Source: Bactericera cockerelli (Eukaryota > Arthropoda > Insecta > Hemiptera > Triozidae). Taken from it: 64,000 nucleotides of DNA. Under the pieces are notes generated by a model, which was not told the origin of the DNA, ran no database searches, and saw only the letters and a list, made by a program, of their open reading frames with translations. Where the stretch lies: positions 26,560,866 through 26,624,865 of the forward strand of contig CM044964.1 in NCBI GenBank assembly GCA_024516035.1. Direction: 5' to 3'. The translations under genes and the position numbers were made by a program. Positions 6,600 through 59,521 of the stretch are shown here, one piece after another. The stretch's first letter is position 1. Every line of letters begins with the position of its first letter.

Positions 6600-6629
6600 T
6601 ATTTTTCTTTCTAACTAAAAAAAATTCCA

Positions 6630-6893
6630 GCCAGCGTCGATGGCATGTTGAATACACCGGTTCCCTTCAGAACACCGAAGTTAAGCGACATCCAGCGAGG
6701 TTAAGACTTGGATGGGTGACCATTCAAATTCTAATTCTCGTGACGCTGGCTTTTCCCGGCCCCACTCAGGCTGGGTGAGGTCAATATGAGTAGCAGGTTT
6801 GTGAGTTTCCTGCGAATGGAGGGTAAAACCCCCGTCGTGATATGACCATGGCAGTTGAAAGCGACGTTAAAACCCCACTTAAAAAAAAAAAAA
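6630..6893 (+). repeat. 5S rRNA-derived SINE (SINE3-like), long copy
   Basis: Positions about 6645-6755 follow 5S rRNA: GAATACACCGGTTC, ACACCGAAGTTAAGC, then the internal-promoter-like CTTGGATGGGTGACC. The 3' part is the shared tail GGCCCCACTCAGGCTGGG ... GAATGGAGGGTAAAACC ... GCAGTTGAAAGCGACG, ending in poly-A. It is not a working 5S gene because it diverges and is fused to the tail. Pol III transcription from the 5S internal control region is the family's usual mode. Confidence 0.75.
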
Positions 6894-8365: not shown

Positions 8366-8465
8366 AAAAAGTGAAGAAGGAGAGAAAGAGAAAGAAGATA
8401 TTGAGATGGTGATTGATGAACAAGAAAATCAGGAGCAAGGAGACAAAACACAAAAAGAAAAATAG

Positions 8466-9767: not shown

Positions 9768-11436
9768 AGCCAGGAAAATGATTGTGAGTTTAAATGATAA
9801 TCAGGGTAAGGAAATTAGGGATAAAGAGAGCTTATTAGAAAGAGTGAAGGAATTTTATGAAGAACTGTATCGAGGCATAGATAATAGAGACGAGAAGGAA
9901 TCAGAAGAGATAGAGAATAGTGAGGAATGGTTGGAAATAATGAAAGAAGAGGTGATTAAAGCGATAAGAGATACCAAGGAGGGGAAAGCGTGTGGAATAG
10001 ACAGAGTGACAATGGAAATGATAAAAGCGGGAGGAGAAACAGTGGCAGAATACTTGACTGAGATTTTTAATAAGTGCATGAGAGAAGGGAAATTACCAAG
10101 GGGGTGGAACATAGCAAAACTTGTATTGTTGTTTAAGAAAGGGGACCCAAGAGAACTAAAGAATTTTCGACCTTTGAGTCTTCTAAATGTGGAATATAAA
10201 TTGCTATCCAAAGTCATTTCAAAGAGACTACAAAGTTATTATAACAACTTCCTGTCAGTTGAGCAAGCAGGTTTTAGAGCAAATTTTTCCACTATAGATC
10301 ATATCTTTGTCTTAAATGACCTACTTAGAAAAGCTGTGGAATATAATTTTGCTTTAGTATACTTGTTTATTGACTTCGAAAAGGCCTTTGATCTCATTTC
10401 AACAAAAAAATTAATAACAATGCTAAGACAGATAGGGGTTGATGAAAAAATTGTGAGATATATGGAGGAGGTTTATGGAAAATCAAGTTTGGAGTTTGAA
10501 CTAGAAAAAGGGTATAAAACAGAAATAAAAGTTAGGAGTGGGGTAAAACAAGGAGATGTTATATCTCCGACTCTTTTTATTGGAGTCCTACAGGAAATTA
10601 TGAATAAGATAGACTGGGAGGAAAAGGGAATCATGGTGGAAGGAAAAAGGTTAAATAGATTGGCATTTGCAGATGACATAGTTTTGATAGGAAGTAGAGT
10701 TGAAGAAGTAAGGAATATGTGTGAAAAATTGTTAAATGAATGTGAGAAGTATGGAATGAGGGTGAATGTTAATAAATGTAGATTGATGATGACAGAGGAA
10801 AATGCAGAGGATAAGTTGATGATAAAAGGAGAGGAAGTGAGAAGAGAAAAAAATTTCATATATTTGGGACAATTATTGAGTGTGGAAGGTCAGTGGGCAG
10901 AAATTTGTAGACGGTGTGCGATAGGATGGAGTACTTTGATGAAAAACAAAGAAGTATATAAATCAGGGGTAAAAATGGAAGTAAAAAGGAAACTTTGGGA
11001 AATGACGGTCTTGCCTAGTATGACGTATGGATGTGAAACATGGGTGATGAGTGCGAGAGTGAGAAATAAATTGAGAGTTACAGTTAGAGCAATGGAGAGA
11101 TATATGTTAAGGAAGACAAGGAGAGATAGAATAAGGAACACAACAGTGAGATATATGACAGGATTTAAAGATATTGTAGGTATAGTGATTAAAAGAAAAT
11201 GGAAATGGGCGGGGCATATAGCTAGAACAAAGGATGATAGGTGGACGAAAAAGTTAATGGAGTGGTATCCCAGAGATCATGGGCGTGGAAGAGGTAGACC
11301 AAAAGATAAATGGGATAAGGAAATGAGGTTAGTATGTGGAGGAGTATTATGGAGGAGAGTAGCTGAGGAGAGAAGTGAGTGGAAAAGAATGGGAAAAGTG
11401 TATAGAGAAGTATGGTTGGAGTATCAAAGAGATTGA
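9727..11436 (+). CDS. LINE ORF2, C-terminal part: reverse transcriptase
   Basis: 569 codons in the frame following the shift; its first ATG is not a real start. RT motifs run in order: KKGDPRELKNFRPLSLLN (about residues 137-154), IDFEKAFD (215-222), GVKQGDVISPTLF (272-284), the catalytic LAFADDIVLIG (FADD at 314-317) and FIYLGQLL (near 378). The C-terminal third has KWKWAGHIAR and GRGRPKDKW, a pattern found at the end of many insect LINE ORF2 proteins. It copies LINE RNA at the nicked target. The ORF is open to the end, so only the upstream shift breaks ORF2. Confidence 0.85.
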   Translation: MRWENGGKLKEMDKARKMIVSLNDNQGKEIRDKESLLERVKEFYEELYRGIDNRDEKESEEIENSEEWLEIMKEEVIKAIRDTKEGKACGIDRVTMEMIKAGGETVAEYLTEIFNKCMREGKLPRGWNIAKLVLLFKKGDPRELKNFRPLSLLNVEYKLLSKVISKRLQSYYNNFLSVEQAGFRANFSTIDHIFVLNDLLRKAVEYNFALVYLFIDFEKAFDLISTKKLITMLRQIGVDEKIVRYMEEVYGKSSLEFELEKGYKTEIKVRSGVKQGDVISPTLFIGVLQEIMNKIDWEEKGIMVEGKRLNRLAFADDIVLIGSRVEEVRNMCEKLLNECEKYGMRVNVNKCRLMMTEENAEDKLMIKGEEVRREKNFIYLGQLLSVEGQWAEICRRCAIGWSTLMKNKEVYKSGVKMEVKRKLWEMTVLPSMTYGCETWVMSARVRNKLRVTVRAMERYMLRKTRRDRIRNTTVRYMTGFKDIVGIVIKRKWKWAGHIARTKDDRWTKKLMEWYPRDHGRGRGRPKDKWDKEMRLVCGGVLWRRVAEERSEWKRMGKVYREVWLEYQRD

Positions 11437-16400: not shown

Positions 16401-19400
16401 TCAGAAGTTGAGATCTGCGAAACGAACGGGTGCCCTCTTGTTCCGAGTTGATCTTCTGGGGTTTGGATTGTCATCATTCTGTTGGTCGTCATAAGGAATA
16501 TCATTGTTTGGAATATCGTCATTCGGAATTGAATTGTTTGGAATATCGTCATTGGGAATATCGTCATTGGGAATATCATTGTTTAGAATATCATCATTTG
16601 ATTGGTTTCCAGCAGGAGCCAGATATCGAGTCGAAACCGTAGTTTCTCTCCCATCAGGTAGTCGAACATGAGCATACTCATTGTTGGCATCTAAAAGTTC
16701 AACCTCCTCGACCATAGAGTCATATTTGCTTCTTCGGTTTAAACTCTTCATTAGAACGGGTCCTGGTTTTGTCAGCCAAGTGGGCATTGAGCTTCCATTG
16801 AATGAACGACGCGGATGATTGAACATACGTTCATGGGGAGTTGCGTTGGTTGCTGTGCAAAGAAGAGATCGTATACAATGAAGTGAATCACCTAGCACTT
16901 CTTCCCAGTCTTCTGTCTTCGAGTTGCGTGATTTTAGAGCCAACATTATTGTCTTCCAGATGATGCCATTGTATCTTTCGCACTGTCCGTTGCCTTGAGG
17001 GTTGTAGGGTGTTGTGCGACTTGTAGCAACACCTAGTGAAGTGAGGAACGTTTTTATTTCAGAGGACATGAATGCAGTCCCCCTATCAGAATGTATATAA
17101 CTTGGGGTACCAAAAAGAGTGAATAAGTTTGTCAGATTTGTGATAACAGTATTTGAAGATACATCAGGGCATGGAAAAGCAAAAGGAAATCTTGAATATT
17201 CGTCAATAACAGTTAGTATGTATCGATTCCTTGTCTTTGAAGGTAGAGGTCCTTTGAAATCAATGCTCAATCGTTCAAATGGAGCTGAAGACTTGATGAG
17301 CTGGCCTTCATGTTTGTGATAGCGTGGTTTCAGTTCCGCACAAACTCGACAGGAATTAGTCACTTGTCTAACTTCTTCCACAGAGAATGGTAAGTTCTTA
17401 GCTCGGATCCAGTGAGTCATCCTTGTTATACCGGGGTGGCATAGATTATTATGCAAATAAGTCAAGTCAGGTCGAGAGTTGATAGCTGCACTTATGCGGG
17501 ACAGCGCGTCTGCAGGAGCATTCTCACAACCAGGACGATACACTATGTCGAAGTTGAAGCATGCCAGTTCGAGCCTCCATCTCATTATTTTCTCGTTCTT
17601 TATTTTGCTCTTGTGTTTTTGATTGAACATAAAAGATACGGAGCGTTGGTCAGTGATTATTTTGAAAGGTCTTCCAATGAGGTAGTGACGCCAATTCTTT
17701 AGACTCTCAACAATTGCATATGCTTCCTTTTCAATTGAAGCGTGTTGAAGTTCTGACTTGTTCAGAGTTCTCGAGAAGAAAGCGATAGGTCGTCCTTGTT
17801 GACTTAGCGTTGCAGCTATAGCAAAGTGAGACGCGTCCGTTTCAACAGAAAAAGGTACATTGTCTTGAATAGCAGCGGTTGACGCTTTCAGTATGTCACG
17901 CTTCAGATTTTCAAATGCGGATACTTCGTTATCTTGAAAAGGAAAGTTGTTCTGTAAAAGTGGCCGTACTTTCTCTGAGAAATTAGAGATCCACTTACTG
18001 TAGTAAGAGAACATGCCTAGAGCACGTTGAAGGGAAGCTTTGTCGGTTGGAATGGGTAATTCAACAAGTGGCTTCAGACGCTCGGGGTCAGGTTTTATAG
18101 TGTTATTGGATATAGTATAACCAAGTAAACTGACGGCAGTAATGGAAAACTTGCATTTTTCCATATTAAGTGTAAGATTGTACTTCTCGGTGGCTGATAG
18201 AAATTTCTTCAGATTTTCATCATGCTCCTTCTGATCTCGTCCACAGATTGTGACATCATCAAGATAGGGATAGGTGCCTGTGAGTTTCTCATCTTCAACG
18301 ATGCGGTCTATTGTACTCTGGAAGCTTGCTACACCATTAGTAACGCCAAAAGGAACTCTAAGAAAATGATAGAGTTTTCCTGAGGCTTCAAATGCTGTGA
18401 AGTGTTTTTCCGAGTCCATGATAGGTATCTGGTGATACGCACTCTTGAGATCAACCACACTGAACACTTGGTTTGTTGAGACTTTAGCAATGACATCTTC
18501 AATCCTCGGCAAAGGATACGCATCTAGATGTGTGAACTTATTGATGGTTTGAGAATAGTCAATTACCATACGAGGTTTATGTCTTCCATCTCGTACAACG
18601 AATGCTTGAGCGCGCCAGGATGAGTTGTTTCGTTCAATGATTCCATCTTGTAGCATGCGTTCTACTTCGGTGTGGATAAATTGTTTGTCTTCGTCTGATT
18701 GTCTCCTGCTTTTTGTAACTATAGGATAGCAATCTTGTGAAAGGTTAGAGAATAGTGAGACAGGTTCAACGTTAACAACAGCCAAGTTGCAAATTTTCAA
18801 TGGTGGACGTGAACCGTGGAATTCTATCTCAAGTGAAGAGTGAGCTTGGAGCAAGTCATGTCCAAGTATGACGTCACAGCAGAGATTGGACATGATCAGC
18901 AAAGTAACATTCTGGTAGGTGTTGTTGAACACTTGTAATGTCACTTTACATTGTCCAGAAATGTCCGTGGACAAGGAAGAGTTAGCCATACTTATTTTAC
19001 CAGAGTAAGGTAATGGTTTGATTTTACATCTGGACACTAGAGCTTGGCTTATGAAACTGAGTGTTGAACCAGTATCGACAAGAGCTTTGAGAGGTATATT
19101 GTTGACGGTGATATCAATAGTAGACTTTTGTAAACTGTTGGGTGACGCCGCAGTAACAGGAGCAGTATAACATGTCAGAGCAGCAGAAGTCTTGTTGTGT
19201 CGCGGCTTATGTGCTGATTGAGTGAATAGCTTTGACTGACAGACTTTCCCGTAATGTCCTGTCTTGGAACAAATAGAACATTGTGCCTCCTTGGCAGGAC
19301 AAGACGACCGGGGATGCCACTGTTTACCACAAAAGTAACAAGTCTTGGAAGTAAAGGCCACAGTATTGTCAGTGGATTTTAAATTTTGAGATGCAGTGAC

Positions 19401-19949
19401 ATTGGGCACACAACTAGTCTGGTAACTAGACGATTGAAATTCAGCCAGCTCCATAGCTCGGGCTTGATTGAAAGTTTCATCTAGAGTGAGAGTATTGCTC
19501 TCAAGGAGGCGCTGTCGAATGCGGTTGCTTGATAACCCGCTGATAAACGCATCACGAACATACTCTTGTGTGTAGGTATCAGCTGTGACGGCTTCAAAAT
19601 TGCACTCCTTGCTCATTTGCTTCAACACTTGTAGGTACTGGTCGACAGTTTCACCAGAGTTCTGTAGACGCGTTGCTAAGCAATGTCGGGCATAGATGAC
19701 ATTCTTAGGTTTGACGTATAATGATTCGAGAGCGGCAAGGGCTGTAGCGAACGTAGATTTGTTGTCAATGAAGGCGTAGACGTTAGGTGCAAGAAAATTT
19801 GTCAGAAGAGTCAGCTTGTCTTCACTCGTCACGTCTTTGATTTTAGCGACAAAGTTCTGGAACGTTTTCTTCCAGTGCAACCATTGCTTGTCTGCTGATG
19901 TAGAAGTAGGCTCTACAGCAAAGCGTTCGGGTTGTAGGTACTTCTCCAT
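16401..19949 (-). CDS. Gag-pol polyprotein of the Ty3-type retrotransposon
   Basis: 1,182 residues from the ATG at 19949 (the frame opens 18 bp earlier at a TTG, rejected). Order: a gag-like capsid region (1-190); two zinc knuckles, CYFCGKQWHPRSSC and CSICSKTGHYGKVC (about 204-237); aspartic protease with DTG (292-294); reverse transcriptase with VVDLKSAYHQIPI and YLDD (562-565); RNase H (VETDASHFA near 702-712); integrase with an HHCC zinc site (H833, H838, C867, C870) and DD35E triad D897, D955, E991. The spacing D-x57-D-x35-E is regular. The tail holds a degenerate NDDIPN repeat (about 16490-16600), then a basic stretch. No stop or frameshift is present, so the protein looks functional. 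Gag and pol are fused in one frame, without a visible shift signal. Confidence 0.93.
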   Translation of the reverse strand: MEKYLQPERFAVEPTSTSADKQWLHWKKTFQNFVAKIKDVTSEDKLTLLTNFLAPNVYAFIDNKSTFATALAALESLYVKPKNVIYARHCLATRLQNSGETVDQYLQVLKQMSKECNFEAVTADTYTQEYVRDAFISGLSSNRIRQRLLESNTLTLDETFNQARAMELAEFQSSSYQTSCVPNVTASQNLKSTDNTVAFTSKTCYFCGKQWHPRSSCPAKEAQCSICSKTGHYGKVCQSKLFTQSAHKPRHNKTSAALTCYTAPVTAASPNSLQKSTIDITVNNIPLKALVDTGSTLSFISQALVSRCKIKPLPYSGKISMANSSLSTDISGQCKVTLQVFNNTYQNVTLLIMSNLCCDVILGHDLLQAHSSLEIEFHGSRPPLKICNLAVVNVEPVSLFSNLSQDCYPIVTKSRRQSDEDKQFIHTEVERMLQDGIIERNNSSWRAQAFVVRDGRHKPRMVIDYSQTINKFTHLDAYPLPRIEDVIAKVSTNQVFSVVDLKSAYHQIPIMDSEKHFTAFEASGKLYHFLRVPFGVTNGVASFQSTIDRIVEDEKLTGTYPYLDDVTICGRDQKEHDENLKKFLSATEKYNLTLNMEKCKFSITAVSLLGYTISNNTIKPDPERLKPLVELPIPTDKASLQRALGMFSYYSKWISNFSEKVRPLLQNNFPFQDNEVSAFENLKRDILKASTAAIQDNVPFSVETDASHFAIAATLSQQGRPIAFFSRTLNKSELQHASIEKEAYAIVESLKNWRHYLIGRPFKIITDQRSVSFMFNQKHKSKIKNEKIMRWRLELACFNFDIVYRPGCENAPADALSRISAAINSRPDLTYLHNNLCHPGITRMTHWIRAKNLPFSVEEVRQVTNSCRVCAELKPRYHKHEGQLIKSSAPFERLSIDFKGPLPSKTRNRYILTVIDEYSRFPFAFPCPDVSSNTVITNLTNLFTLFGTPSYIHSDRGTAFMSSEIKTFLTSLGVATSRTTPYNPQGNGQCERYNGIIWKTIMLALKSRNSKTEDWEEVLGDSLHCIRSLLCTATNATPHERMFNHPRRSFNGSSMPTWLTKPGPVLMKSLNRRSKYDSMVEEVELLDANNEYAHVRLPDGRETTVSTRYLAPAGNQSNDDILNNDIPNDDIPNDDIPNNSIPNDDIPNNDIPYDDQQNDDNPNPRRSTRNKRAPVRFADLNF

Positions 19950-19983
19950 GTTGAAAGAATACGACAATTTTTGTACTTTAAAT

Positions 19984-24500: not shown

Positions 24501-27046
24501 TTTTTCATTTTCATTGTATATATTGTTTCCATTTTTTTCATTGTTAAATTAATTATTTGTACGTACATAATGTCCATTTATACCTAATAAAGCGTTGAAA
24601 AAAAAGAAAAAAAAAATCAAAGAAAAATTTCAGTGTTGACTCGACGCTCACCCGTGCTTAGTTGTCTCTCGTCTAGACTACTCCTCGGGTCCAGTTGGAA
24701 CTCTATGACTCCCTTGCCGTTATAGGAGGGATTCACCACAAGGAACAGGCCCGGATACAGTGCCTGCAAGTGGTAGCGAATGGTGCGACGCTGAAGAAAC
24801 GTCGAAATGGCTTCCAGCCCTGTGCGATAGTCCGTAGGGTCCTCGCCTGAAATGTTTGGAATATTTCGTGAGGAAAAATGAGATAGGTAAGGTTCCCTCT
24901 ATGTTATATGATCTCAGTGAGTAATACACATTATTGCCGTGCAATAGTCACCGTGGCAGAGTGAGTTAGCTCAAATTTGCTACATATTTTGCTCAAACAG
25001 AAAATCTCAACAACTTTTTTTTGGTTACAAACTTTACATGTTTGGATTTATTAAGTCAATTCGATTTTTTTTTTTTTTTTCCGTCACGAAGTCTTTTGCT
25101 GATGTAATAATTTTATTTGTCCTATTTTAATATACCTAGTCTCCATGAGTACACACAAACACTAAAGTACGTCCTGTGTAACTTATATTACTATCTATCC
25201 AGACTACGTTTGGAGAGAAAATAATAATAATATCGCCTTATTTATACTGCCCGATTAGGACTATTAAGTCCCATTATTCCAGGAGTAAGCCCCAAACGTA
25301 TTATTATGTGGTAAAAATCCTAAATTGGAGGATAACTTGTCATGTCCCGGCTGGGTTTTGAACCCGCGACTTCAGGAATCTCTGGATTCACAGAGTACCG
25401 CCTTTACCACTGAGCTACCGGGACAGATGTTATCATATCATATTATCATATTTGTGTTAATCACACAAGATATGTCGGAATTACACAAAGTCACTCTGCT
25501 AAAATTTTGCCGAGCTTCGAAATCGAACCACTGACCTCCAAGTTACGAGTCTATCGTCTTGTAGCTCGAGCGACGTTGGTTACTTCACGCGACAATTAGG
25601 AGAATTGGAAATCACGGTTATGATTTGGTAATCACCCTTATTCCTGGGCGTTTCTTTATTATAGTGATCTCTAAGAGCCAACCTCCGTGGCTCAGTAGTT
25701 AAGAGTATTGGTTGCTGATCCGGAGGTTGCGGGTTCGAACCCCGGCCAGAGCGGAAAATTCTAACCGAGTTTTCCGTTTCCGGAATGGCAGGGATGTAAA
25801 GGTATGTCCTGAAGTAATGCGAAAGCGGTTCCAGGGCACAATTACCTTTAAAAAAAAGTGATCTTCTAAGAACTAGTTTATGAAGACGCATAGATGATAT
25901 TTTACTTATTCACTTTACCAGTGAATCTCAGTAGCTCGATAGATGAGGCAGTGAGCTCGTAACTTGGAGATTGGAGGTTCGAGTCCCAAGTAAGTCAAAA
26001 ATTTGGTAAAGTAAATTTCAGTAATTTGTAATAATACTATTATGGTTCACACAATTATGATTACCCTAAAAACTTTTAACCTATTTGAGTATCCAAATCA
26101 TCATCACCAGCTTTCTAGTTGCATTACCTTACAGGAGAAGCTTTGGTCTTGCGAAAAAATTTGAACCTATTGTTGAGAGTGTTTTTTTTTCTCGATCATA
26201 TTAGGTCCATAGAAATTGATTCGCTTATTACTCACCCACTGGTATAAGGCGGGAACTTTGGTGCTCGTCCGCTGGATTTGAGCTCAGAATCAGATTCTCC
26301 TCAATGTTAATATCCTTTGCAGAGTGACTATAGCGTTCTAGGAAGTTCACCGTCTTCTGACTAATACAAGGCAAAATCCCAACACTGCCATCCCTGATAC
26401 ATTGCTCCAGGACATTGCCTACGTCACCATTGCTGCTGGTTCCTTGAAAGGTGTCCTCACTTGGAGGTCCATTCTTAGTTCCACGAAAGTTATCTTTGTC
26501 GCTGAATTCACCATTGTGTGTATGAAAGCTATCTTTATTGGAAACGCCATTTGTCATTCCATGAAAGCCGTCCTCATTGGAAGCCTGGAAACTCTCTCCG
26601 TCAAAGCTACCGTCATTGTTGAAATTGGTTTGTTGAATGTTTCCAATGAATCCGTTGTTGGCATCTTCATTTTCAACCGATGCAAAACGATCATCACCAC
26701 CGAATCTGTTGGGGGCAATGCCTCCGTTCTCGTAGTGTTCTCCACTTTCTTGAACATTCCCGCTAGTTGCTTTGTCATGAATGTCACCACTGTGGTTAAC
26801 TTTCTTCACATTGTTTTCACTGGCAGAATGCGCATAGTGCTTCTTTCTCCTGACATGTCTGGTTCCTGTCAGAATTCTTCCATCGACGTCATCAAGGCTT
26901 TCTATACTTTCCAAGTTTGTTTTCGTTTCTTCCATGATGGCTGTAGGACTTTTGAGTGGGTCTTCAAGAAACTTGATGGCTTCAGTGTTCTCGAAAATGA
27001 AGACAGTTGTTAATATGCATCTGATCATGTGAAGTTTGGAGACCAT
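21598..27046 (-). CDS. Osiris (DUF1676) family protein, complete, four exons, 532 aa
   Basis: Exons: 27046-26236, 24846-24652, 23101-22926, 22014-21598. All junctions are GT-AG and the phases join (1, 1, 0) without stops. Residues 1-23 form a signal peptide. Residues about 25-205 are an unusual polar insert with a degenerate 14-15 residue repeat at about 150-206 (pattern S-x-D-x-F-x-G-x-x-N-G). C216 and C227 are the Osiris cysteine pair. Exon 2 continues DUF1676 (EDPTDYRTGLEAIS). Exon 3 (residues 336-394) is the hydrophobic segment after RLLIKRNVLPILLGFK. Exon 4 (395-532) is Gly/Ser/His-rich, with HLHHGHHHG and GGSG runs, and ends in a basic WKRT. It is about twice the usual Osiris length. 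The role is probably membrane-associated, in cuticle or apical-matrix secretion, known for the family and inferred here. Confidence 0.88.
22055..22395 (+). repeat. Dispersed element with five to six 38-bp units
   Basis: Lies in the last intron-to-exon region upstream of exon 4 of the Osiris gene. The unit core is AGGGAGTAGACCAGCAGTCT followed by GGCTGGGGGACTATAAAC. After the array comes the unique end (GGCTTGGTTCTGGGGGCC ... CTACCATCGTTCACGATGAC). Copies at 4128 and 56775 have one or two units, so array length varies between insertions. Confidence 0.75.
22801..22905 (-). pseudogene. Tandem partial duplicate of Osiris exon 3
   Basis: Repeats the second half of exon 3 (22926-23101) with its donor. 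The exon-like part is 22890-22824 and the donor AAG|GTAAGTAAC is kept. A 7 bp insertion (TACTGAC at 22891-22897) separates it from matching upstream sequence. The reading frame used by exon 3 meets TAA just before the conserved ATG codon, and the product differs at several residues (Leu to Pro in the TSFVG region). It is probably not an alternative exon, although it brings a second donor 100 bp downstream of the real one. Confidence 0.7.
23102..24245. other. Osiris intron 2, upper part: repeats
   Basis: Within the intron 23102-24651. 23509-23610 holds about 2.3 copies of a 48 bp unit (core AAAAGGCGTTTTTTGAACGA). 23760-23965 is SINE family D. 24005-24070 is a tail E fragment (GTGGAAGAGATTACCGCAGG). 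The rest is AT-rich. Confidence 0.5.
23760..23965 (-). repeat. tRNA-derived SINE, family D
   Basis: The minus strand starts with a tRNA-like head (TGTTCCGGTAGGTCAGTGGT and GTCGTGGGTTCGAAACCC). The tail runs through ACATAATAATATGTCTTGGG to an AT/AAT microsatellite. Inserted in an Osiris intron. Confidence 0.75.
24254..24382. mobile_element. hAT-type MITE, 129 bp
   Basis: Terminal inverted repeats CAGTGGCGTA / TACGCCACTG, flanked by a perfect 8 bp target duplication CTCCTAAT at 24246-24253 and 24383-24390. The inside is G-rich (runs of 8-10 G). TIR start and 8 bp duplication are hAT hallmarks. No coding capacity; inserted in an Osiris intron. Confidence 0.88.
24449..24610 (+). repeat. Retroelement 3' tail, family E
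   Basis: GGCAATAACCCCGCCCTTTA, then an AT-rich stretch, TACCTAATAAAGCGTTGAAA and poly-A. It ends about 40 bp from the Osiris exon 2 donor. Confidence 0.6.
25222..25425 (-). repeat. tRNA-derived SINE, family D
   Basis: Head TGTCCCGGTAGCTCAGTGGT on the minus strand with GGGTTCAAAACCC. Body as in the copy at 23760. Confidence 0.75.
25678..25857 (+). repeat. tRNA-derived SINE, family A
   Basis: The best preserved head of the family: GGCTCAGTAGTTAAGAGT and GCGGGTTCGAACCCCGGC. Ends in AATTACCTTTAAAAAAA. Confidence 0.78.
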
Positions 27047-27999: not shown

Positions 28000-28222
28000 A
28001 CAGGGTTGATGACGCATTGAATACACCGGTTCTCGATAGATCACCGAAGTAAACAAACGTCCAACGAATTCAAAACTAGGTGGGTTACAACACTCACATT
28101 CAAATTCTCGGAAGTAAATGAGAGTAACAGGATTGTGAGTTTCCTGCAAATGGAGGGTAACACCTCCGTCGTGATAAAAGCATGCAGTTGAAAGTGACGT
28201 TAAACGCAAACTAAAAAAGAAA
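28000..28222 (+). repeat. 5S rRNA-derived SINE, worn copy
   Basis: GAATACACCGGTTCTCG and GATCACCGAAGTAAAC match the 5S head. The tail has GTGAGTTTCCTGCAAATGGA and GCAGTTGAAAGTGACGTTAA, ending in an A-rich stretch. Confidence 0.65.
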
Positions 28223-28424
28223 ACTTACTCTAGTGCACTTGTCTGAAAGAAGAACTTACTATCTTCACTTACGTAACATCAAACTTACTCCTACATACAA
28301 ATTACAGTACAACCATACAACCGGATCACGAGAAAAGTAAAAGTCCATTTCCTATATTTAGAACAGTGATTACTGCGATTGATCTACCTATCTCTATTTA
28401 AATTTCACCTATAAATAATAATAA

Positions 28425-28559
28425 TTCCGGCCCCGCTCAGGCTGGGTGAAATTTTGTGAGTTTCACCTGGTTTGTGAGTTTCTAACGAATGGAAGGTAAA
28501 ACCCTCGTTTTGATATGACCATGCAGTTGATAGGTACGTTAAACCCAAAAAAAAAAAAA
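28425..28559 (+). repeat. Shared SINE 3' tail without a head
   Basis: GGCCCCGCTCAGGCTGGGTG through ATGACCATGCAGTTGATAGG to poly-A. Similar headless tails lie at 34352, 49875, 54898 and 58436. Confidence 0.6.
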
Positions 28560-28569
28560 TGTTATTAAT

Positions 28570-28796
28570 TTGTTGGCCGTGATAGACACCGATAATATGT
28601 ATCTCACGGTAGTGGAAGGATTATACCTAGGAAGGATCTGGGTGTTACTTTCTCTGAGGACCTATCTTTTAAGACTCAGATAAGTTACACTGTTGGATCC
28701 TGTTACCGTACACTTGGTTTCTTAATGCGAACATTCAAAGGTGTGGACAATCCTGATCTTTATATCCTCCTTTTCAACTCCCTCATCCTATCGCGG
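28570..28796 (+). pseudogene. LINE reverse-transcriptase fragment, left part
   Basis: Translates with motifs DLGVTFSEDLSFKTQIS and LYILLFNSLILSR, typical of the segment after the RT core in CR1/Jockey-like LINEs. It is cut at CGCGG by the Transib element and continues at 31521. Confidence 0.75.
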
Positions 28797-28835
28797 CACA
28801 TACAAAGATTTGCCCAATCTGGGGGGACAAAATTA
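28797..28835 (+). other. Transib left end, RSS-like signal
   Basis: Heptamer CACATAC (28797-28803), 23 bp spacer (28804-28826), nonamer-like ACAAAATTA (28827-28835). Against the vertebrate nonamer ACAAAAACC, six of nine positions match; the heptamer keeps the essential CAC. Confidence 0.7.
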
Positions 28836-28877
28836 TTTTATGCATTTAATCATTTGGAAACAGGGTAAAACTAGTTT

Positions 28878-31248
28878 TTATTCTTCATCAGAGCTGATAA
28901 AATCATGAAGAGCATTAATTGGGGTTTCAAGACTCTGAGGGCATTGGAGCATGGATATGGTCTCTTTTGAAAATGGTTCTGAGGTTCTCCTATTGCTTGG
29001 TGGTCTCATCCCTGTCATAAGAGGGTCAGAATTGATCAATAACCTGTTCAAAATGTCCACATTACATTCAGTACGTGTGAATTTTCTAGCGAAATTCTGT
29101 CGATATTGACGAATATACTTGTTCCTAGCTTCAGCTGCCTCCTCCGATAGTTGCCCAATTGGCAATAGAGCTTTCTCTATTACTTGCGGTCCATGGATGA
29201 GGATTTTATGGAGGGTTGGAGTCATAGGATGCCATCCGTACAGGTCAACATAGAGCTTTGCAGTTTCTTTCGCATATACTGAGAACTGTTCCACGTTGAT
29301 CTCTAGCCCACTAGACAACACTTCTAAAATAATTTTAAAGCGATAGATAAGGTTCACATCTATTCCAGTAATTTCTGAAGCGAGTTCATGGTCCGCAAAA
29401 AAACGTCTGCTTGTGTTGCCGTCATTAGTGTTCCCGAAGTTAGCCTTTGGGACATCTACGATAAGGCCCGTTTTCCTATGGAATTCCTCTTGAATTTCTT
29501 TTTTTCTTTCTTGGACTCTTGCTTTTTCTTCCTTACTTCTGAGCTGCCATTTTTTGACTGGGGCTTTATACGCCAGATGAAGAATGGCTTCAAAGAATCG
29601 AATCCTTGCATGCAATATTGACAAGCCGAAATCCAAAGTGCCATCTTTTACAGGTAATGTTGTTTCAAGAGAGCTGTTGAAATCTTTAGAAGTTAATCCG
29701 CATATATAACATCTCATTGTGGATGTCGTGTTAGTGGCAGAGTTACATACTTTACCATCAATCATAGTGAGCATCATGATATGTGATACTTTATATGTGA
29801 TTTCGTTCTTCACCACTGCTGTTTTTTCCAAATTATTAGCAGCATCTTGGATGTGCTCTATTTCCTCTCTAGTGACATCTGCGGTTTCCTTTATGAAACG
29901 AAGCCGTATTGGCCGACAATAACGTGGAGATGATGGTGTTGGGTTTTGCCATACAACTTTATTGTTTGTTGAACACAGGAGACGTAGGGGCACGAACGAA
30001 CTCTGAAAGAGATTCCCATCTGATAAGTTCGAGTCGGAAATGAACTTTTGTTTGAACTGAGCTTGCTGAGCCCCATCACAGCCCCACTTGGATAACAAAA
30101 CCAATGAACTCCTCTCATTTTCGTTAAGGCTGGACAATAACTCTTCAAGATCTGTTAACAATCTGGAGGCCGTGTGATCCATGAGAGCTTGCAGTTTTAT
30201 TTCAGCTGAAGTTTCGGTAACTGTGATTGAATCTTGCTGAGGATAACACTCTTTCTTTGCTTCTTGAATCTTATCATAGCATGGAAGCATATTTGGTATA
30301 TAGCCACGTATGATGTTATATTGTCTAGTTGACAAGTCGGCTTCAATGAACATCGAGAGAGCTTCTCGTGATGTTAATTGCTTGCTTTTCTTCTCAGTTT
30401 GGCTATTACTGAATGCTTTTTTATATTTTGTAGCTCGTTTAGGAGTTGATATTGATTCCTTGAGCACAAAGGCTGCATCACGTTTTCCTTCAGTAGCTAA
30501 TTTCGATTGAGTGGCATATGTCAGAACATCTAAATCAATGGTTTTTCTTAATTCTTCTGTTCTTCTGCGTTTGTTTCTTTCTGTCAAATTCTGGAACAAC
30601 TTCTTTGGACGACCGGGACCGGATCCGGTTGGTGGACTCAGAGGTTTAGGAATATGTATTTTGCCATCCAACCATTTCTCGTTTTGTTTTTCAAAAAATT
30701 CTTTTCTATAACGGGAAATAGTAAATCTTGTCTTCAAATCTGACTTTATTCTTCGAACATCTCTACGAAAATTTTCAGTGTCCTTGTCAGAAAATGGTCC
30801 AAAGTTGAATAAATAGGTTTCCAGGTTCTCCAATTTTTCTCCAAAATTGTAACCTTCTGAATTCATGACATATGTGAACAACTGTTTTCGAGTCATTACC
30901 TGACAGCCAGATGTACCTAGAACCAAAAAAAGTCATTATCGAGCAAATTCAAAATTATGGTGCTTTGAGGTACCCTCAGTTTTTTAGCTCTAAAACAAAA
31001 AGTGACTAAAAGTGACTTCTAAAAATCACAGGATTAAAAGATGAGAAAAAAGACTTTCGAATGATACTGGATTCAATGCCGGGCAAAGCCGGGCACACTA
31101 ACTTTTGTACCTTTGAAATTTTTATTTTAGGAAAATGAAGGTTCAAAAAGGAACTTTTTTGAAATAGCCCCAGAACCCGAGGGAGCACTTGTAGAAATAA
31201 AAGAAAAAGTGAAAAATGTTCTTACTTACCTTCTCCATCGATATCCAT
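28878..31248 (-). CDS. Transib transposase (RAG1-like recombinase), two exons, 685 aa
   Basis: Exon 1 is 31248-31230 (MDIDGE plus one base, donor G|GTAAGT); exon 2 is 30916-28878 after TTCTAG; the 313 bp intron is removed in phase. Without splicing there is no good ATG at the start. Residues follow RAG1 order: a GRPKK AT-hook-like motif with a basic helix at 108-128, where RAG1 has its nonamer-binding GRPR region; the catalytic aspartates D287 (WGCDGAQQ) and D393 (LTMIDGK); zinc ligands C409 and C412 (CYIC) and H576 and H581 (HKILIH); and catalytic E602 (EEAAEARNK, RAG1 SEGNESGNK). The D-D distance (106) is near that of RAG1 (108). The predicted role is hairpin-type cut-and-paste transposition. 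No stop or shift is present, so it may be active. Confidence 0.9.
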
Positions 31249-31481
31249 CGCGACTTTAACTCGGAAAAAATATTATGACACCTTAGCTGTAATTAGAAAA
31301 TTGTCTACTGTTGTGTTACGTAGAAAGTCTTATTATACACTAACCAATGGGTCAACTTTTAAATCGCCTAGCAACAAGAATAATTAAACAAGGAAAAAAA
31401 TGTTGGTTGATAATAATGTATTAGGGTCTTGAGTACCTGAATTTACCAATTGGAGGGTTCCACGTTCGATTTCAGAAAATA

Positions 31482-31520
31482 CCTATTTGTCCGCCCAGAT
31501 TGGGCAAATCTTTGTATGTG
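31482..31520 (-). other. Transib right end, RSS-like signal
   Basis: Read on the minus strand from 31520: CACATAC, exactly 23 bp, then ACAAATAGG. Both ends therefore have 23 bp spacing. This fits the known resemblance of Transib termini to 23-RSS. Confidence 0.7.
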
Positions 31521-31640
31521 CGCGGTTAGAATATTGTCCCCCTATCTGGTCTCCTAGTACCGGTGTGGACACGAAGATATTGGAGGACGTGCAGGCTTCA
31601 TTCTGCAGGGGACTCTTCACCTCTACATAATTCAACTGTC
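31521..31640 (+). pseudogene. LINE reverse-transcriptase fragment, right part
   Basis: Continues the frame cut at 28796: LEYCPPIWSPSTG, then TKILEDVQASFCRGL, and a stop near 31616. This is the common LEYxxxIWSP block after the RT domain. The rest of the LINE is gone. Confidence 0.75.
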
Positions 31641-40650: not shown

Positions 40651-43600
40651 TTATTCGGTTTTCTGGTGGGCGGCGTAGGCCAGTTTCTGGGCGGGGGCGG
40701 CGTCTAGACTCCTGGCGGCGGCGTAGTGTCCATGTTGGTGTTCCTCAGAGTAGTGAGGGTGGGCGACCACCTCGTAGCTCTGGGTCTGAGCGTGCTTGTT
40801 GGCCAGGAGCTTCTGGACTCCGATGATCAGAGCGAGGACCAGGGCGATCTTGGAGATGATGATGGCCTTGAAGGAGAGGAGAGCCAGGGCACCGAGAGCC
40901 AGAGGGATGAGGGCAGCAGCCTTCAGCTTGAAGAGGAGGAGGAGGGGCAGGAGCATCTTGATCTTCTTCTTCTTGCCACGGCCTGGGAACAGAGAGATGA
41001 TGACAAAGGTTATAACAGTTGTTTACTAGAGAACTTTGTTAAAGTCCTTCCATTCATTTAAAATGCATACCAATCATTTAAGGTTAGATTTTAGAAAATG
41101 CTTTGAGCATCAAACTCGCCTGGTGGTTACCTTCCACTAAAGAGTGTTATTATAATAATTAATTATTATTATAATAATTAAAGAATCAAGAGATCACGAG
41201 TTAATTTCGTATGAACTAGCGACAAAGCTCATAAACTCTTTTACTAAGTATTCTAAAACAACAAATTAGGATAAGTAAGAGACGTTGTTGAAAATAATCA
41301 AGTAACAAAAACTTGTAGCCCCACCAGAGTAGAACTTTGCCAATATTTGTGAACAAACAAAAAGTCAAAAAAGAAACTTGAAGCATAATATGCATGATCT
41401 TACATAGATTGAGGTCAGATCTACACTGGTGTAGTCCCACATTCCATGCACCTGTCTCATCTGTTCACAAGCATCGGAATCAATAAATAAAGTAATGGAC
41501 AAGCCAACTCTCACAAGCACACCCATTTAGGGGACTGGATTGTAAACCACACCGAACCGGGCTGAACGACAACTTTCTTTGAAGCAAATGAAACTTGATT
41601 CGATATAAAAAAAAAAGAAAAAAAAAATCAGTAATCAGAGCCGAAGACCGGTTTCTTTTGGCAACCAACTTTTTCATTGATTTTGCTGAAGAACAGACGT
41701 GAATGGGGATTGGTTTTGAAAAATGGAGTTGGTCCAAAAATACCGAAGGAATCCATGTCAATTGGAAATTTTGTATTCATGTCGAACTGAAAGTCGATAA
41801 ATAATTCTATTTCTACCGTTGTACCTAGTCAATATTGTCTTTCTCATGTGAGTTTCGTCAGTTTCTCTTTTACTAACCTCGTGTTTAGAAATTCTTGAGC
41901 AAGAATCAATTAATCGTTGTAGCGGCAATATTTTTTTTATCAATGTAGCGACATAACAATTTGGCCAAATCAATTGCCAAATGGAGGTACCTATGATTCG
42001 CACCTGCAGAGGAGACATTAGCTCCTCAATGCGTCAGTCAGTAGGAACAGTAGGAAGTATTATTGTTTCATTACAATTCTCACAGCATGGGTGTAGTTTC
42101 AGCAAAATGGTATCATGCATCTAATTATGACTTGGAGAGAACGATTCATAAACGTTTTCTGTGACATCATTTTCATAGCCAACAAAGAAGCCATGAATGA
42201 GCGTCTGAATAGAATCGTGAATATTAAATAGGTTGAAACTGTTGAAAGCAACAGCGAAATTTAATAAACATTCAAATAGAGGACACACTCACGAATGAAT
42301 TCATTAAATCTGATCGGAGTCATTTGATACAACACCTAGAAGAGTTAAACATAGAAGTCCAAAATTGTTGTTCTATAGAACATTTTTTTTTCAAATCAAC
42401 TTCGTCACTAATAACTAGATAACAAGTTATATTTTAGGTACTTGTTTAAACTGAATTTTCAGTTTGTTGAGCAAAATGTATAATTTTAGTTATAGATGAA
42501 AAGTGAACAAAAAGTTTATTCAAGCCTTGAATAGATACGTTGAATTGATACCATCCTTCTGCAAACATATACAAAAGAAAGAAGAAGATTACCTACTGCA
42601 AATAAAAATAATGCAAGCACAGGTGTGCCGGTTGGGTTTGACTACATACATTCAGTCCACTCTCTCTCCAAGGAAAGTACATTTTGTCTAAACTATGAAG
42701 TGGACATTATCGGACCTCTACTTGGTCATAAATTTACAACGAGCTATGTCGAAAGTTTTGGCGAGGATTCAAAAACATACATTCATCCATGTAACTTGAA
42801 AAAAATTCATCATCATCGTTAGTTTCTTCCTTTACTTTTAGAGTATTCACCAGATTCTTGAATGCTTCAATCACTTTTTCAGTCATTTTGGTTTACTAAA
42901 AGTAAGCCAAGTATTTACACGAATGCAAAACTCACTTGTGAAATGTAGAACATACTTGATTATATCTTGAGTATGTTTCTGTGAAAGACAAGTATCAGGT
43001 AAGGTGTAAACTCGTACATGTATCATTCATAAAACCTGAACATTATCTACGTTGAAGGAATTCAAGAATACGAATTGCTGGGACTACCATTAGAGTCCAC
43101 TTTAATGTCCAATAACCAGACAGATAACTCGTAAATTTCTAATTGCATGATACTTCACATTCATGCCCAGATATGTAGACGGACCGTTGTCAGAGTCCAA
43201 CAAAGAATTTCTTCTGTAATGACCAAGTGATACAAGAAGCTCTTCATACCAAAGAAAGTTTCACTTGTGGAGAAAATAGATCCTAGTTAGGTTGAAATAT
43301 AACTAGAAATCAAAGATGAATATCCTGAATATACATGATAGGTCAGATCTGAAGATAATAATATATATTGCTTCGGCAAATGACCAATTGACCACACTGC
43401 CCGGTAGAAGTTGTACAGAAGACGTAATTGATCCAAGTCCATAACCATATCTTCTTAGATATTCTTGGTATTGCTATTAATGGTACAGATCTTGAAGCAC
43501 GTACGTGAGGCTACTAATAGAGAGTACTGCATCCGGTATCTCAAATGAAAGTTACCAGGTAATTGAAGTCATAATGCATTTTGAAGTGGGTCTGATTAAT

Positions 43601-46600
43601 AATACTGATCGATCGATAGCTGATCGGGGATGCTAGAAAAAATAAAGACTTGGGCTGAACTATACAATACGAGTAACAAGAATTTAAGAACCCTCCTTTT
43701 TTACTGTTTTTAAAGTGAAATCACTTTGGACTTTTTCAAAAGATCAAAGTTTTTAGTTTCTCTCTAGTGTCGTAGGATGTAATAATAGGACTTTTGTATC
43801 TCCAGAAATGCATCAAATTTTGCATTGTTCTAAACTACATCAAAGAGCAGTTGGATACAAAAGGGAGAATGGTAAGATTTCACTCAGGTTAGTATCACAG
43901 GAAAACTTCACAGATACCTATTATTTCTAGATCAATTTTTACATTATTTTTCTAATAAGCTTTGTCAGTTTCTCCACAGAGGTCTACATCCTATTCAAAA
44001 GATTAGAAACCCTATTACAAAATTAGGAACTACTGAATGAATATGCCAGTTTGTTTGCTGTTATCTCTAGGTAAATGTATTGTACTAGTCTAATGTCTTT
44101 GCAAAGTTATATCTTTGATATTAAATACGTTATGTATTTTAATTTGTGTAGATCTAACGCTAACCGAACAAGTGGGTTTTCAATTACAATGACTCAGTAA
44201 AATTCTACGCTCTTATGATGGAATGGGCTGGTATTGAAAAACTTTCACAGTTCTTCGATTAGCTAGAGACAATTAGCATGATCTTGTTTCTTGACCGAGC
44301 CATTGCCCATTCACAATATTCACTTTTCGGCTTGTGTTGTGCGGCGAGTGAATGTTGCAATATTTGAGAGCAATATTTCTTCTTCTAAACGTTTCCCATG
44401 GAATAGTCTTAAACATAATCAAACCATTTCATATTTGAAAGCTGATATCGGGCTGAAATATACTAAGCAGGAATGAAAGCATTTTTTTGATATTTTTACG
44501 TCATCTGTGTATCATGAAACAAAACTAAACTTACACTTTGTTTATATAAGTTATTTTATGGAATTCGGGTTTCTCCATAAAAAAATTAAAAGAGTCGTAT
44601 AGAAATTCTGTTGCTGAACTGTAAGTGGGAAAATACCTTTTAAAACTATCTCTTAACCCCTTTGAAAAAACTCCTATATCATAAACCAGTTCATAAGATA
44701 AATTGAACTCCCAAATTTCTAAATCTTGAGCCACCATGTTTAATACAATTTTATTCTGGACCTTGTTTATTCGAGATGAAAAAAAAAAGTGATTTGAAAG
44801 TAAGCAGCTCGACCTGCCTCTGATCAAGACCGGCTTTAAATGGTAAGAGCCAGGTGCGGCACTTGTTTCGAGAAATTATCGATCCAGATGAAAGTAGAAT
44901 TTTTACCTTTTAGGCTGCGTCGGCTAAAACCAGTCAGTCCGTTTCTATTAGTTTCGTTTTCTTTTCAACTCAAATTTAAACGTGTCAACTTTCTGCGTTG
45001 AACAGGTTTTTGTTTGTTTGAAGTATTGCTTGTAAAAGTATCAGTGTCAGCTTGAAGAACATGTCGTATTAAATTTTACTTTAAGATGACAGACTTCTTA
45101 AATTTGAACATTTCATATCAACTTATACCTAATGGGCATTGAAGGATACACGATGGTAGATACAAATAGGGCACTACTAGTACACATTTTTCCTCAATTT
45201 AAATTTGAAATCTACTTAAAAGCTGGCAATAAAGTATTGCGTCCAATGAATTATGTGCCACATGCTAGTGCTATAGGAGAACCACACAAGGTATGCGGTA
45301 TTTAAGCTATTTGGCACAGTCTCGGTGTTTCAACCAAATGTACACAATAAGTAAAATAATGAAGATACTAATGTCGATGGTCATGATGATGCAGAATTAC
45401 ACATGCATGTCGCATGGTTGGGAGTCGCATTAGGTTTGAGCCAAATCTCACACGACGCGTAGGCCAAGACACATTGGACTTGTTGAACCTAACAGTCTAG
45501 ATTCGAGCATTGAGCGATGGGACCTGTCCGGAATATTGATGAGAGAGACCCAGTGAGACGGTTTGGTGATGCTAAGAACGCTCCGAGTTGACCAAATAGA
45601 ATTTGGTCAAGAAAAAAAAAAAAAAAAAAAAAAAAACGGAGGAATTATCAGAGGGGAAGAGAAATAGAGAGATTATTGAGAGGGACAAAATTATAAGATG
45701 AACTCACAAAAGAAATGATGTAAGATGTCTCACATTATCTCAATGAATTTGTTGAGAAAAATAAGAAGAAATGGTTTGCACAAGAAAGATGAGCTGAGAT
45801 GAACTTTCGGGAAATAAAATAGTAAGAGAAATGGTGAAAGCGAAAGGGAAAGAGTTAGAGCGCGAGAAAAGTGATTAATTAGGCCTCTTGTTCAAAAATA
45901 GATAGTGTATGCACTGGTCCACTCAGTCAACTGAAAGATCTAAATGCATTGATGAGCACATTAGAATTGCATATTGTTTGCTGATTAAGATAACTATCTG
46001 TGATGTGAGAATAATTATTATTATATGATATATGAGACTACCAGTGGAACCGTAGTTGTAGTTAGCAGACAGCGTTAAAAACAAATGAAAGTTAATTACA
46101 AGAGAGTGTGTTACCTTGTTAATAAAATAATGTAATGATTAAATCAGATTAGTATCTTTGTTTCAATCTTTAAAGTAAAGCTTGTAAATTATTGTAACGA
46201 ATGATAAAGATCTTGATAAGATATGTCAAACATGTGATAATCTAAAACTGCTTTCGCTAGAACAAGTAGTTGATGGAATTACACTTCAGATAATAAAGGT
46301 TAATTAAACCTTGTGATAAAGAAATGAAAAGATAATTGAAGATTCTATTTGTTCATCATATGGAAATATTATAGACAAAAAAGTATGTGCTAAAACAGGT
46401 AGTGTGTGATCTCCACCAAAATATCCAGAACAAAACCTTGGGAACCATTACAATCCTTGATGTGAAAAATGGTATTGAATCGGTTCAAAATTGGTATCTA
46501 TTGAAATTCAAGACCTAGATCCCTAATCGAACTTAATGACTTTCGAATACAACCTGGTAGTGGATCGGCTAATTCATTCGCTATACTTGGCCATTTAAAA

Positions 46601-48952
46601 ACTAGTTTACCGGACCGTTTAGAAAACGAATAGGTGGCTTCAAATTTGGGCCAAGATGCCTGAAGACATTTCGTCTAACGGACACACAGGAGATAGGAGA
46701 GAAACGAGTGTAATAAATCAGTAAATTGGAATTCTTGAAGAAGGCTAAAAACACTTAAAAATGGGAGCAGGTAATCTGTTCAGTTTTGAAATGGGATACT
46801 GTTCTAAGTGCTCCTTTGCGTGAATGAGCTGAAGATAGCTATTAAACTGTGAATATTATTTATATTATGCATTCCTAATAATTACACATTTTATGCATCA
46901 ACTTGAGCTCACTGTTTCGAGACCAAGGAAGCATTGCCTCTTCAGAAACGGATTGATATTATGTTGAGTTTCTTTGAATATGCTCTTAATTATAATAATT
47001 ACATTATTGTAGGGTATGCTTTCTAGTTATTATACGAGTACTTGAACCTAATTGTAAGATCACCTATTTAAAACTGAGGATCAACTCATAAATTATAAAG
47101 AGAAAGACGGAAGACATGTTGCGATATATGGATGAGAAAACACTGGTCATGGTACATTTTTTGTTGTGATTCTTTTTCTCTAAACAAATAATTCCTCTGG
47201 TCTGAATCCTATCAGAGGAATCAGAGTAAAATCATGGACATAAACCACATTTACATTATAGTTTACCTTGTTGGAGAAATTCATTTTTATAGGTGAATAC
47301 TTTTAAATATATGACTCAGTATACCCAAAGAAATTACTGAGAGAAGATAAAGTTCATAATATTTGAACAAAGTTGAAGGGAAGATACTTACTCTAACATC
47401 AATATGTACGTATTTTAAGCATGATTTGCCTAATTTTTCAAAGAATACAGAATCACTTCCATACCGTAGAAAATGCATCAAGAATTCAAGTAACAGAAGT
47501 TAGAAACAAATTCACCTCAATCACGAACCGGAAACATGATCTTGAGCTATTACAAGAAGTGGAAACAACTCTGACTTAACATTAAACTAAACTCACTAGG
47601 TTAAGGACCAGTATATTATCAAAGAGTTGAGATCATAGATAGCAAGAACCACATACCTGTACATCGCTAGACTACAATGGAGTCAAAGATCATCAACATA
47701 GATGAGAATTGTGAGGATAGGTCTGAAAGAACGTCAAGTCTAAACCATGTACGTCTCTATTGTGAGATTCCATTGTACTTGTTCTGGGCTATTGTTATTA
47801 TTTTTAACATGGTAATGTGGGATTTACATAATTATCTCATCACACTTATACATATGAGCTAGTTGAATAATTAAACAGGTATCTACTAATTGAAACATAG
47901 GATGAAAGACACTGAATGTTTTTGGACCTTTTTATAGATTCTGTTTAATACTACTGTGATTTATAACTTGTTACCGTCTGAAATGACCTAATACGACTTT
48001 ATGAATTACATAGTTGAGGTTTGAGTATTCTAAATCGATTCTATGGAACAAAAAAAAAAGAAATACTGAAGAGAATAAGATGATAGGCACAAATAGTTAT
48101 GTAAGTATGAATGGTTTAATTTGGAACCGTTTAATTTGTAGATTATCAAAAGATATGAAGCCAAATTCAATTAATTACAATGAGACGAAAGAAGAACTTT
48201 ACTTTTAATTTTGATTCTTTACTAGATAGTAGAATAAGTGAGTATGAATTAAAAGTCATACCTATCAAGATGTAAGTTAATTCGATCAATATTCAAATTA
48301 ACAAAAGAACTTAATCAAATACTAGAAAATTTTAAATTTGTATGCCACTTTTAGCAGCAAGTCAATTTTCAACGGTTGTTCAGATACTACTTAAGGGTCG
48401 TTTGATTCAATTGTTCTGAACAATAGTTTTGAAGAGCCTGAAAAGCCCAGAGAAAATTCCTCTTGGCTATTTTAAAATAAAACTTGGGATAAGTTTTCTA
48501 AGCTTACCTTCATCGAGGGATCTCTTCATTTCGTTGACGGCGGTGGTTGGCATCTTGAACTGAATGACATGGGAGGACAGGAATTTGGCGACTCTGTCCA
48601 TGAACAGATTCTCAATATCGTCTTCGGATTTGGTGGCAAAGTCCTCCTCAGACAAGGCACGCTGGTCTCTCAGGGAGCTCTTGTCTTCGTTGCTGACAAT
48701 GGTTAATCCATCAACAATTGGGATTTCGTTCTTTCTCAGCATTTTGTCGACGTAAGTCAGAGAGCGCATCTTCAGGCATGATGTCAGTTCCTTATCGCCA
48801 CAGCTCTTGACAAAGGTTGTGACCTTTTCGATGTAGCCAGCAACGGTGGAGTCGCTGTTAGGCACAACCTTGTTTTCCTCCGGCTGGGAAGGGAAACAAC
48901 TGATCACTTGTATCGATATCAAGAGGACGGATAACTTCAAAAAACGATTCAT
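40651..48952 (-). CDS. Osiris (DUF1676) family protein, complete, two exons, 258 aa
   Basis: Exon 1 is 48952-48508 (donor GAAG|GTAAGC), exon 2 is 40982-40651 (acceptor TTCCCAG). The split glycine codon joins in phase 1. Residues 1-19 are a signal peptide. C51 and C59 are the Osiris cysteine pair; DUF1676 runs through LFMDRVAKFLSSHVIQFKMP. A basic RGKKKKIK precedes the long Leu/Ala/Ile-rich segment (about 158-205, with two hydrophobic runs and a single K between). The C-terminus is His/Tyr-rich and ends with AQKLAY (246-251), the conserved Osiris AQxLAY motif. Length and layout are typical. The 7.5 kb intron is very large for the family. Exon 1 is present again, inverted, at 59522-59966. Likely a membrane or endosomal protein in cuticle-secreting cells. 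Confidence 0.92.
40983..48507. other. Large Osiris intron, 7,525 bp
   Basis: Mostly unique AT-rich DNA with few SINE traces (only a family B 3' fragment at 41108-41156). The poly-A run at 45613-45636 is the main simple repeat. Paired open frames shared with the inverted copy (44531-44827 and 63634-63915) shift frame between copies, so they are not conserved as protein. The low SINE load contrasts with the other intergenic parts and may mean a functional intron or chance. Confidence 0.5.
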
Positions 48953-49095
48953 TTTGAACGTTTTAAAATTAAACTAAAAGTTTAAAAAATAAAAATAGAA
49001 CACACGAGATCACACCGCGAGTTTAGAAACACTCGCGCTCGAAAACAACTAGACGCGATGACTTTTCAATGTGTCCACTTCAAAGTCCGTTGATC

Positions 49096-49132
49096 AACTG
49101 AAAGATCTCAATATTTTGTAATCGTATTTATA
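49096..49132 (-). promoter_or_regulatory. TATA box and initiator of the Osiris gene
   Basis: TATAAATA (49132-49125) and the arthropod initiator TCAGTT (49101-49096), with the initiator A 33 bp from the first T of the TATA box. This predicts a start site at 49099 and a 5'UTR of about 146 bp. Both elements are unchanged in the inverted copy. Confidence 0.65.
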
Positions 49133-51043: not shown

Positions 51044-51143
51044 NNNNNNNNNNNNNNNNNNNNNNNNNNNNNNNNNNNNNNNNNNNNNNNNNNNNNNNNN
51101 NNNNNNNNNNNNNNNNNNNNNNNNNNNNNNNNNNNNNNNNNNN
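51044..51143. other. Assembly gap, 100 N
   Basis: Exactly 100 N, the usual placeholder for a scaffold join of unknown length. The left contig ends inside a sequence that continues, inverted, below 57480. Confidence 0.98.
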
Positions 51144-59337: not shown

Positions 59338-59374
59338 TATAAATACGATTACAAAATATTGAGATCTTTCAGTT
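59338..59374 (+). promoter_or_regulatory. TATA box and initiator, second Osiris copy
   Basis: TATAAATA at 59338-59345 and TCAGTT at 59369-59374, the same 33 bp spacing as the left copy. The predicted 5'UTR differs by small changes, including a CT insertion near 59432. Confidence 0.6.
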
Positions 59375-59521
59375 GATCAACGGACTTTGAAGTGGACACA
59401 TTGAAAAGTCATCGCGTCTAGTTGTTTTCTCTCGAGCGCGAGTGTGTCTAAACTCGCGGTGTGATCTCGTGTGTTCTATTTTTATTTTTTAAACTTTTAG
59501 TTTAATTTTAAAACGTTCAAA

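Follow-up and report, generated by a model that had tools for sequence, protein, structure and literature searches.

A full-length Transib transposon with a RAG1-type transposase gene, perhaps still mobile, in Bactericera cockerelli

Transib, a superfamily of DNA transposons, is the presumed ancestral source of RAG1, the recombinase of antibody genes. A candidate member of this superfamily lies in a stretch of the Bactericera cockerelli genome (Hemiptera, Triozidae; assembly GCA_024516035.1, contig CM044964.1, positions 26,560,866 to 26,624,865 of the forward strand), here called the window, which is 64,000 nucleotides long and is the whole of the DNA in which the positions below are counted. 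An earlier note, made from the sequence alone, had described it as complete, RAG1-like and perhaps still mobile, and the locus raises the question of what kind of element it is and whether it can still move. We are highly confident that it is a full-length Transib DNA transposon of the cut-and-paste type, with a single, probably spliced gene for a predicted 685-residue RAG1-type DDE transposase. One or a few sources probably gave rise to its family in a recent spread, and the finding of ten near-identical full-length copies, seven of them with an unbroken gene, suggests that the element may still move.

The complete element occupies window positions 28797..31520 on the minus strand (2,724 bp inclusive), as judged from its ends, the flanking duplication, the genome copies and a search with the end pattern. 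Its left terminal inverted repeat of 35 bp (28797..28831, plus strand) starts with the heptamer-like CACATAC, and comparison of the ends gives a right repeat of equal length with one mismatch (31486..31520, minus strand). The element is flanked by a perfect target-site duplication, CGCGG, of which the left copy is at 28792..28796 and the right copy, read beside the right end of the element, at 31521..31525. The span of the element, the length and single mismatch of its repeats and the letters of the duplication are as the earlier note had them. Target duplications of Transib are described as 5 bp long and GC-rich, with a preference for CGNCG (PMC4735498), from which the CGCGG of the window copy is one letter off.

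The transposase gene is read from the minus strand. Predicted exon 1 (31230..31248) encodes MDIDGE and the first base of the next codon, and is followed by a predicted GT-AG intron of 313 bp (30917..31229; GTAAGT...TTCTAG) and by exon 2 (28878..30916, stop codon included), which encodes the protein from residue 7, whose codon the intron splits, to residue 685. The joined exons give the 685-residue frame that had been proposed, with a single stop at its end, and simple unspliced read-through from exon 1 into the intron is blocked by a stop. The intron is predicted from the joining of the frames and from the residues after the splice, which resemble those of named relatives. The spliced N terminus would be MDIDGEGTSG, and similar N termini occur in three of the ten relatives inspected, all named insects (P0028, MDLSEPGTSG; P0045, MDFQEPGPSG; P0010, MSVNTSVQTPGPSG, with a looser likeness). 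A scripted motif scan near the starts of 83 aligned relatives, an alignment outside which P0045 falls, gave 3 matches (P0010, P0028 and P0053); in P0053, TPGASG is preceded by a stretch resembling an intron translated as protein. Many other relatives start further in and are predicted on short contigs. We regard the splice that joins the two exons as a well-supported prediction from sequence.

The RAG1-core-like part of the protein (exon-2 residues 179-679; 28881..30383, minus strand) comprises the RNase H core, the zinc residues and the C-terminal part. All seven residues previously picked out are present at the positions given for them, namely D287, D393 and E602 of the RNase H core and the zinc residues C409, C412, H576 and H581 (spliced numbering), whose RAG1 counterparts we take to be D600, D708, E962, C727, C730, H937 and H942, respectively. 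In HMMER alignments with RAG1, the counterparts of D, D, E and both histidines are visible; at the two cysteines the RAG1 stretch of these alignments is short and unsure, and both cysteines are conserved in HzTransib, the Transib of Helicoverpa zea. An RNase H core with an inserted zinc region (CxxC, HxxxxH) is supported by the alignments and also by structure prediction, in which the core part has the HzTransib/RAG1 fold, the catalytic residues being aligned by sequence. A Pfam search of the protein gave a match to RAG1 alone, below threshold; two of four relatives tested exceed the cut-off. PF26100, which is precomputed for many relatives, was not among the Pfam matches obtained here. Exon-2 residues 102-162 (30432..30614, minus strand) may form a nonamer-binding-like domain with a GRP motif, which is found in 81 of 84 aligned rows (the window protein counted). 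Foldseek with a model of the N-terminal part returned no row with an E value as low as 0.001, and the first 100 residues have no fold assignment.

A search of the genome (565 Mb in 1,032 contigs) with the element as query gave ten full-length copies on contigs C1, C2, C3, C7, C9 and C10, together with two truncated copies, of which that on C132 has no left end and that on C1003 stops where its contig does, and three more that are interrupted by other sequence. There are thus 15 insertions in total, 13 with both ends and two with one end. The exact end pattern was found at 28 places (reversed control, 0), and all of them fall in the 15 insertions, so that short derivatives with exactly these ends do not form a population of their own. 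Pairwise, the full-length copies diverge by 1 to 11 substitutions per 2.72 kb; L008 and L010 have five changes in common and all other changes are private to single copies, giving a star-like pattern. The 5-bp duplications are GC-rich and differ between copies. They are perfect in nine of the ten full-length copies, the two copies of the duplication at L007 differing once, and in 11 of the 13 both-ended copies (the exceptions are L007 and the interrupted copy in L035). Eight of the 11 perfect duplications are CGNCG, and all 11 start with CG and end with G in the orientation of the element.

A read-archive contig of 2,730 bp (P0002) encodes a protein that is identical to that of the window over 679 residues save one. 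The differing residue, N94 in spliced numbering, is N in P0002 and in the majority of the ten copies, and H in the window copy. Judging by this likeness we treat P0002 as the window element represented in read data. Its size, almost exactly that of the element, would be explained if the edges of a multicopy element were points at which assembly graphs break. The interrupted copies are of three sorts: in L034, 76 bp of the element are swapped for 383 bp, L035 has a palindromic-looking insert of 1.8 kb, and L040 has a 5.2-kb insert with inverted ends. L034 and L035 are interrupted at the identical element position, 1524, by unrelated inserts, perhaps by chance.

Autonomous Transibs are described as often damaged, with active copies as rare survivors, and as usually single or, at most, present a few times (Kapitonov and Koonin, PMC4411706), from which the ten full-length copies found here depart. 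The 685-residue frame is intact in seven of the ten, and frameshifts are present in L003, L009 and L010. The earlier proposal of mobility is well founded, because ten near-identical full-length copies have differing duplications. It is nevertheless possible, and in our judgement a serious if not the favoured alternative, that this Transib died recently, having spread not long ago and leaving no copy that now yields a working transposase, whether through silencing or through hidden defects such as private substitutions. Every full-length copy has changes, 12 of the 19 coding substitutions alter residues, the three frameshifted copies are already broken, a search with the flanks of L002 revealed no insertion polymorphism, and active autonomous copies seldom survive in general (PMC4411706). 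However, the entire frame and both ends are kept in seven of the ten full-length copies, and the window copy has all seven motif residues unaltered. The changes among the ten copies comprise 7 synonymous, 12 nonsynonymous, 0 nonsense and 14 noncoding ones, with 8 indel columns; set against the 79% of possible single changes that are nonsynonymous, the 19 coding changes are too few for a claim about selection.

Could the apparent spread be an artefact, with one or two true insertions multiplied by assembly error? Some copies do lie on small contigs (C132, C781 and C1003), and the window contains, next to a gap of 100 N, an inverted near-copy of 5.9 kb, so that haplotype duplication may exist in the assembly. 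The ten full-length copies, however, are on six contigs, and have different flanks, differing duplications and, except for the pair L008/L010, private substitutions, which makes this explanation very improbable.

Empty sites reveal precise insertion with target duplication. Genome-wide searches for such sites cover three of the ten full-length copies, L001 (the window copy), L002 and L010, and no insertion polymorphism was seen in them. From a reading of its flanks, the window copy appears to have inserted in the reverse-transcriptase part of a repeat that resembles a long interspersed nuclear element (LINE) and is multicopy. Its joined flanks with one CGCGG gave 22 genome matches, 19 of which run across the junction (all 175 bases in 16 cases, and 3-175, 1-126 and 45-175 in one case each); the remaining three are the two halves of the window copy itself and one right-side fragment. 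All six unfilled paralogous sites that were read have one CGCGG and no gap. With the flanks of L010, all 47 rows listed align across the junction at 72-92% identity, as judged from the spans of the alignments (40 of 1,219 candidates scored). L002 lies in unique sequence, and the genome-wide search gave its two filled halves alone and no empty allele. In a limited sequence set of this genome, junction-spanning matches were found for four of the ten copies, those of L003 and L004 being neighbouring tandem units and those of L005 and L008 repeats elsewhere; for L003 and L005 they extend only 16-17 bases beyond the junction. The best spanning match of L008 is in the window itself, at 6629-6890 (98% over 262 bases). 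Copies of this dispersed repeat are present in the window at 28427-28559, 28111-28225 and 6629-6890, and the copy at L008 was hit by Transib at CGACG. A domesticated, immobile host gene for a RAG1-like protein, derived from a Transib, might also have an intact frame with a predicted intron, but this reading is refuted by near-identical copies at ten separate sites with inverted ends and, in nine of them, exact 5-bp duplications, as well as by the 19 unfilled places across the insertion point, and we give it practically no credence.

As to the kind of transposon, sequence searches give Transib as the best match, in line with the identity first suggested. Other DDE superfamilies were rejected, the best matches being neither Hermes (hAT) nor the P element transposase. 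The match of exon 2 to HzTransib has E 1.5e-113, far stronger than that to RAG1L (E 1.4e-4) of the ProtoRAG/RAGL transposons (amphioxus BbRAG1L, PDB 6b40), which carry RAG2L. A transposon of this RAG-like type that has lost its RAG2-like partner, or in which the partner was overlooked, would agree with the RAG1-type core and the possible nonamer-binding-like domain, but it is hardly conceivable given the far closer match to HzTransib and the absence of a RAG2-like partner among element frames of at least 80 residues, the sole such frame besides the transposase being 85 residues long, within the transposase region on the same strand in another phase (a RAG2-like gene split into shorter exons was not searched for).

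The Transib of the window thus belongs to a known superfamily, and both of its RAG1-like extras, the signal-like ends and the possible nonamer-binding-like domain, have precedents. Aligned over 470 residues, its protein is 40% identical to one of the HzTransib structures (6pqx; the others are PDB 6pqn, 6pqr and 6pqy), whose fold it is predicted to share. HzTransib has been shown to cut DNA in vitro (PMC6941560). It also makes a 5-bp duplication, GCTCG, and is 3,518 bp long with a deduced protein of 489 residues (PMC1852546), compared with 2,724 bp and 685 residues here. The solved HzTransib chain (497 residues) aligns only from exon-2 residue 178, so that the N-terminal part, which bears the GRP motif, is almost entirely missing from it. 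Long-form insect relatives (P0003-P0121, including Osmia lignaria, Anticarsia gemmatalis and Ceutorhynchus assimilis) have 49-65% identity to the window protein, and since the closest distinct relative is 66% identical, the window element represents a separate family. Identity to the vertebrate RAG1 core is 16-18% in the RAG1 rows; in contrast to vertebrate RAG1, the window element has no RAG2 among its frames of at least 80 residues, has symmetric ends instead of 12/23 ones and is still a transposon.

If HzTransib and RAG1 are a guide, the transposase would act as a dimer that binds the two ends by their CACA start, pairs them and places nicks at the element boundary. Hairpins would then form on the flanking DNA, releasing the element, which would be joined to a new CG-rich target by cuts staggered by 5 bp, producing the duplication. 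The candidate N-terminal domain may in addition grip the ACAAA motif that follows a 23-bp spacer in each end.

Both ends have CACATAC, then 23 bp, then a nonamer-like part, ACAAAATTA on the left (28827-28835, reaching 4 bp beyond the 35-bp repeat) and ACAAATAGG on the right (31482-31490, minus strand, spanning the inner edge of the repeat). Inverted repeats of Transib elements start with CAC in the manner of the heptamer of recombination signal sequences (RSS), CACAGTG, with which CACATAC agrees in its first four letters only. Each nonamer-like part matches the RSS nonamer, ACAAAAACC, at six of nine letters, the best score among spacers 8 to 33; about 2% of 9-mers in the element score 6, and the scores of the two ends are not independent because the inverted repeat includes the first five letters. 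Another repeat of the same genome, related to Transib but diverged, occurs at 10 or more places (L036, L037, L038, L039 and L041 among them); it resembles the window family at 73-86% around the right end and in a section of the intron. Its end has CACAGAG, 23 bp and an A-rich motif, which is ACAAAAAGG in two and ACATAAAGG in three of the five ends that were read. Between the two families (ACAAAAAGG form), five of seven heptamer letters, five of the next ten and 17 of 18 at positions 18-35 are kept, the last stretch including the start of the nonamer-like part.

The ends of HzTransib likewise resemble the RSS heptamer, with little or no similarity to the nonamer in the account given by PMC8289069. 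For other Transib elements, RSS-like ends are already on record, with spacers that are symmetric and 20-22 bp long or, in some cases, of the asymmetric 12/23 kind (PMC8355894); the 23-bp-spaced ends are therefore a variant of something known. A Transib with a RAG1-type nonamer-binding domain has also been reported (PMC9435367). It is conceivable, although we think it rather unlikely, that the family is a still-jumping, recently active 23/23 RSS system run by a single protein, in which a RAG1-core transposase with a nonamer-binding domain reads heptamer and nonamer 23 bp apart at both ends. If so, RSS architecture, spacer included, could be studied in a mobile element without RAG2. The Transib transposase structures that we found are of a short protein without most of the N-terminal part, and this family offers the long form, a possible nonamer-binding-like domain, 23-bp-spaced ends and a seemingly recent spread. 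It would allow a direct look at the role that the nonamer-binding domain had when RAG2 and the 12/23 rule did not yet exist, and its practical value is that seven long-form frames are intact and nearly identical, with ends that match.

Several other features are present in the window. The inverted near-copy comprises 44451-50296 and 58175-64000 (5,902 alignment columns, 94.9% identical), continues for 0.78 kb at 89% and adjoins the 100-N gap at 51044-51143. It is probably an uncollapsed second haplotype, and possibly a real inverted duplication. Both arms hold the same 161-residue DUF1676 frame. Osiris is an insect gene family, and Osiris-like genes (DUF1676, PF07898) at 40651-40956 and 48467-48952 match Pfam; the translation of 59522-60007 equals that of 48467-48952. 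These genes point to an insect as the host. The frames at 877-1194 and 26228-27046 have no Pfam match and are perhaps Osiris-like by appearance only. On the minus strand, 16401-19967 is an open frame of 1,188 residues with aspartyl protease, reverse transcriptase, RNase H and integrase, of Ty3/gypsy type. On the plus strand, a LINE-like element at 7511-11436 comprises a frame of 284 residues and two further frames, for an endonuclease and a reverse transcriptase, which overlap each other in different phases.
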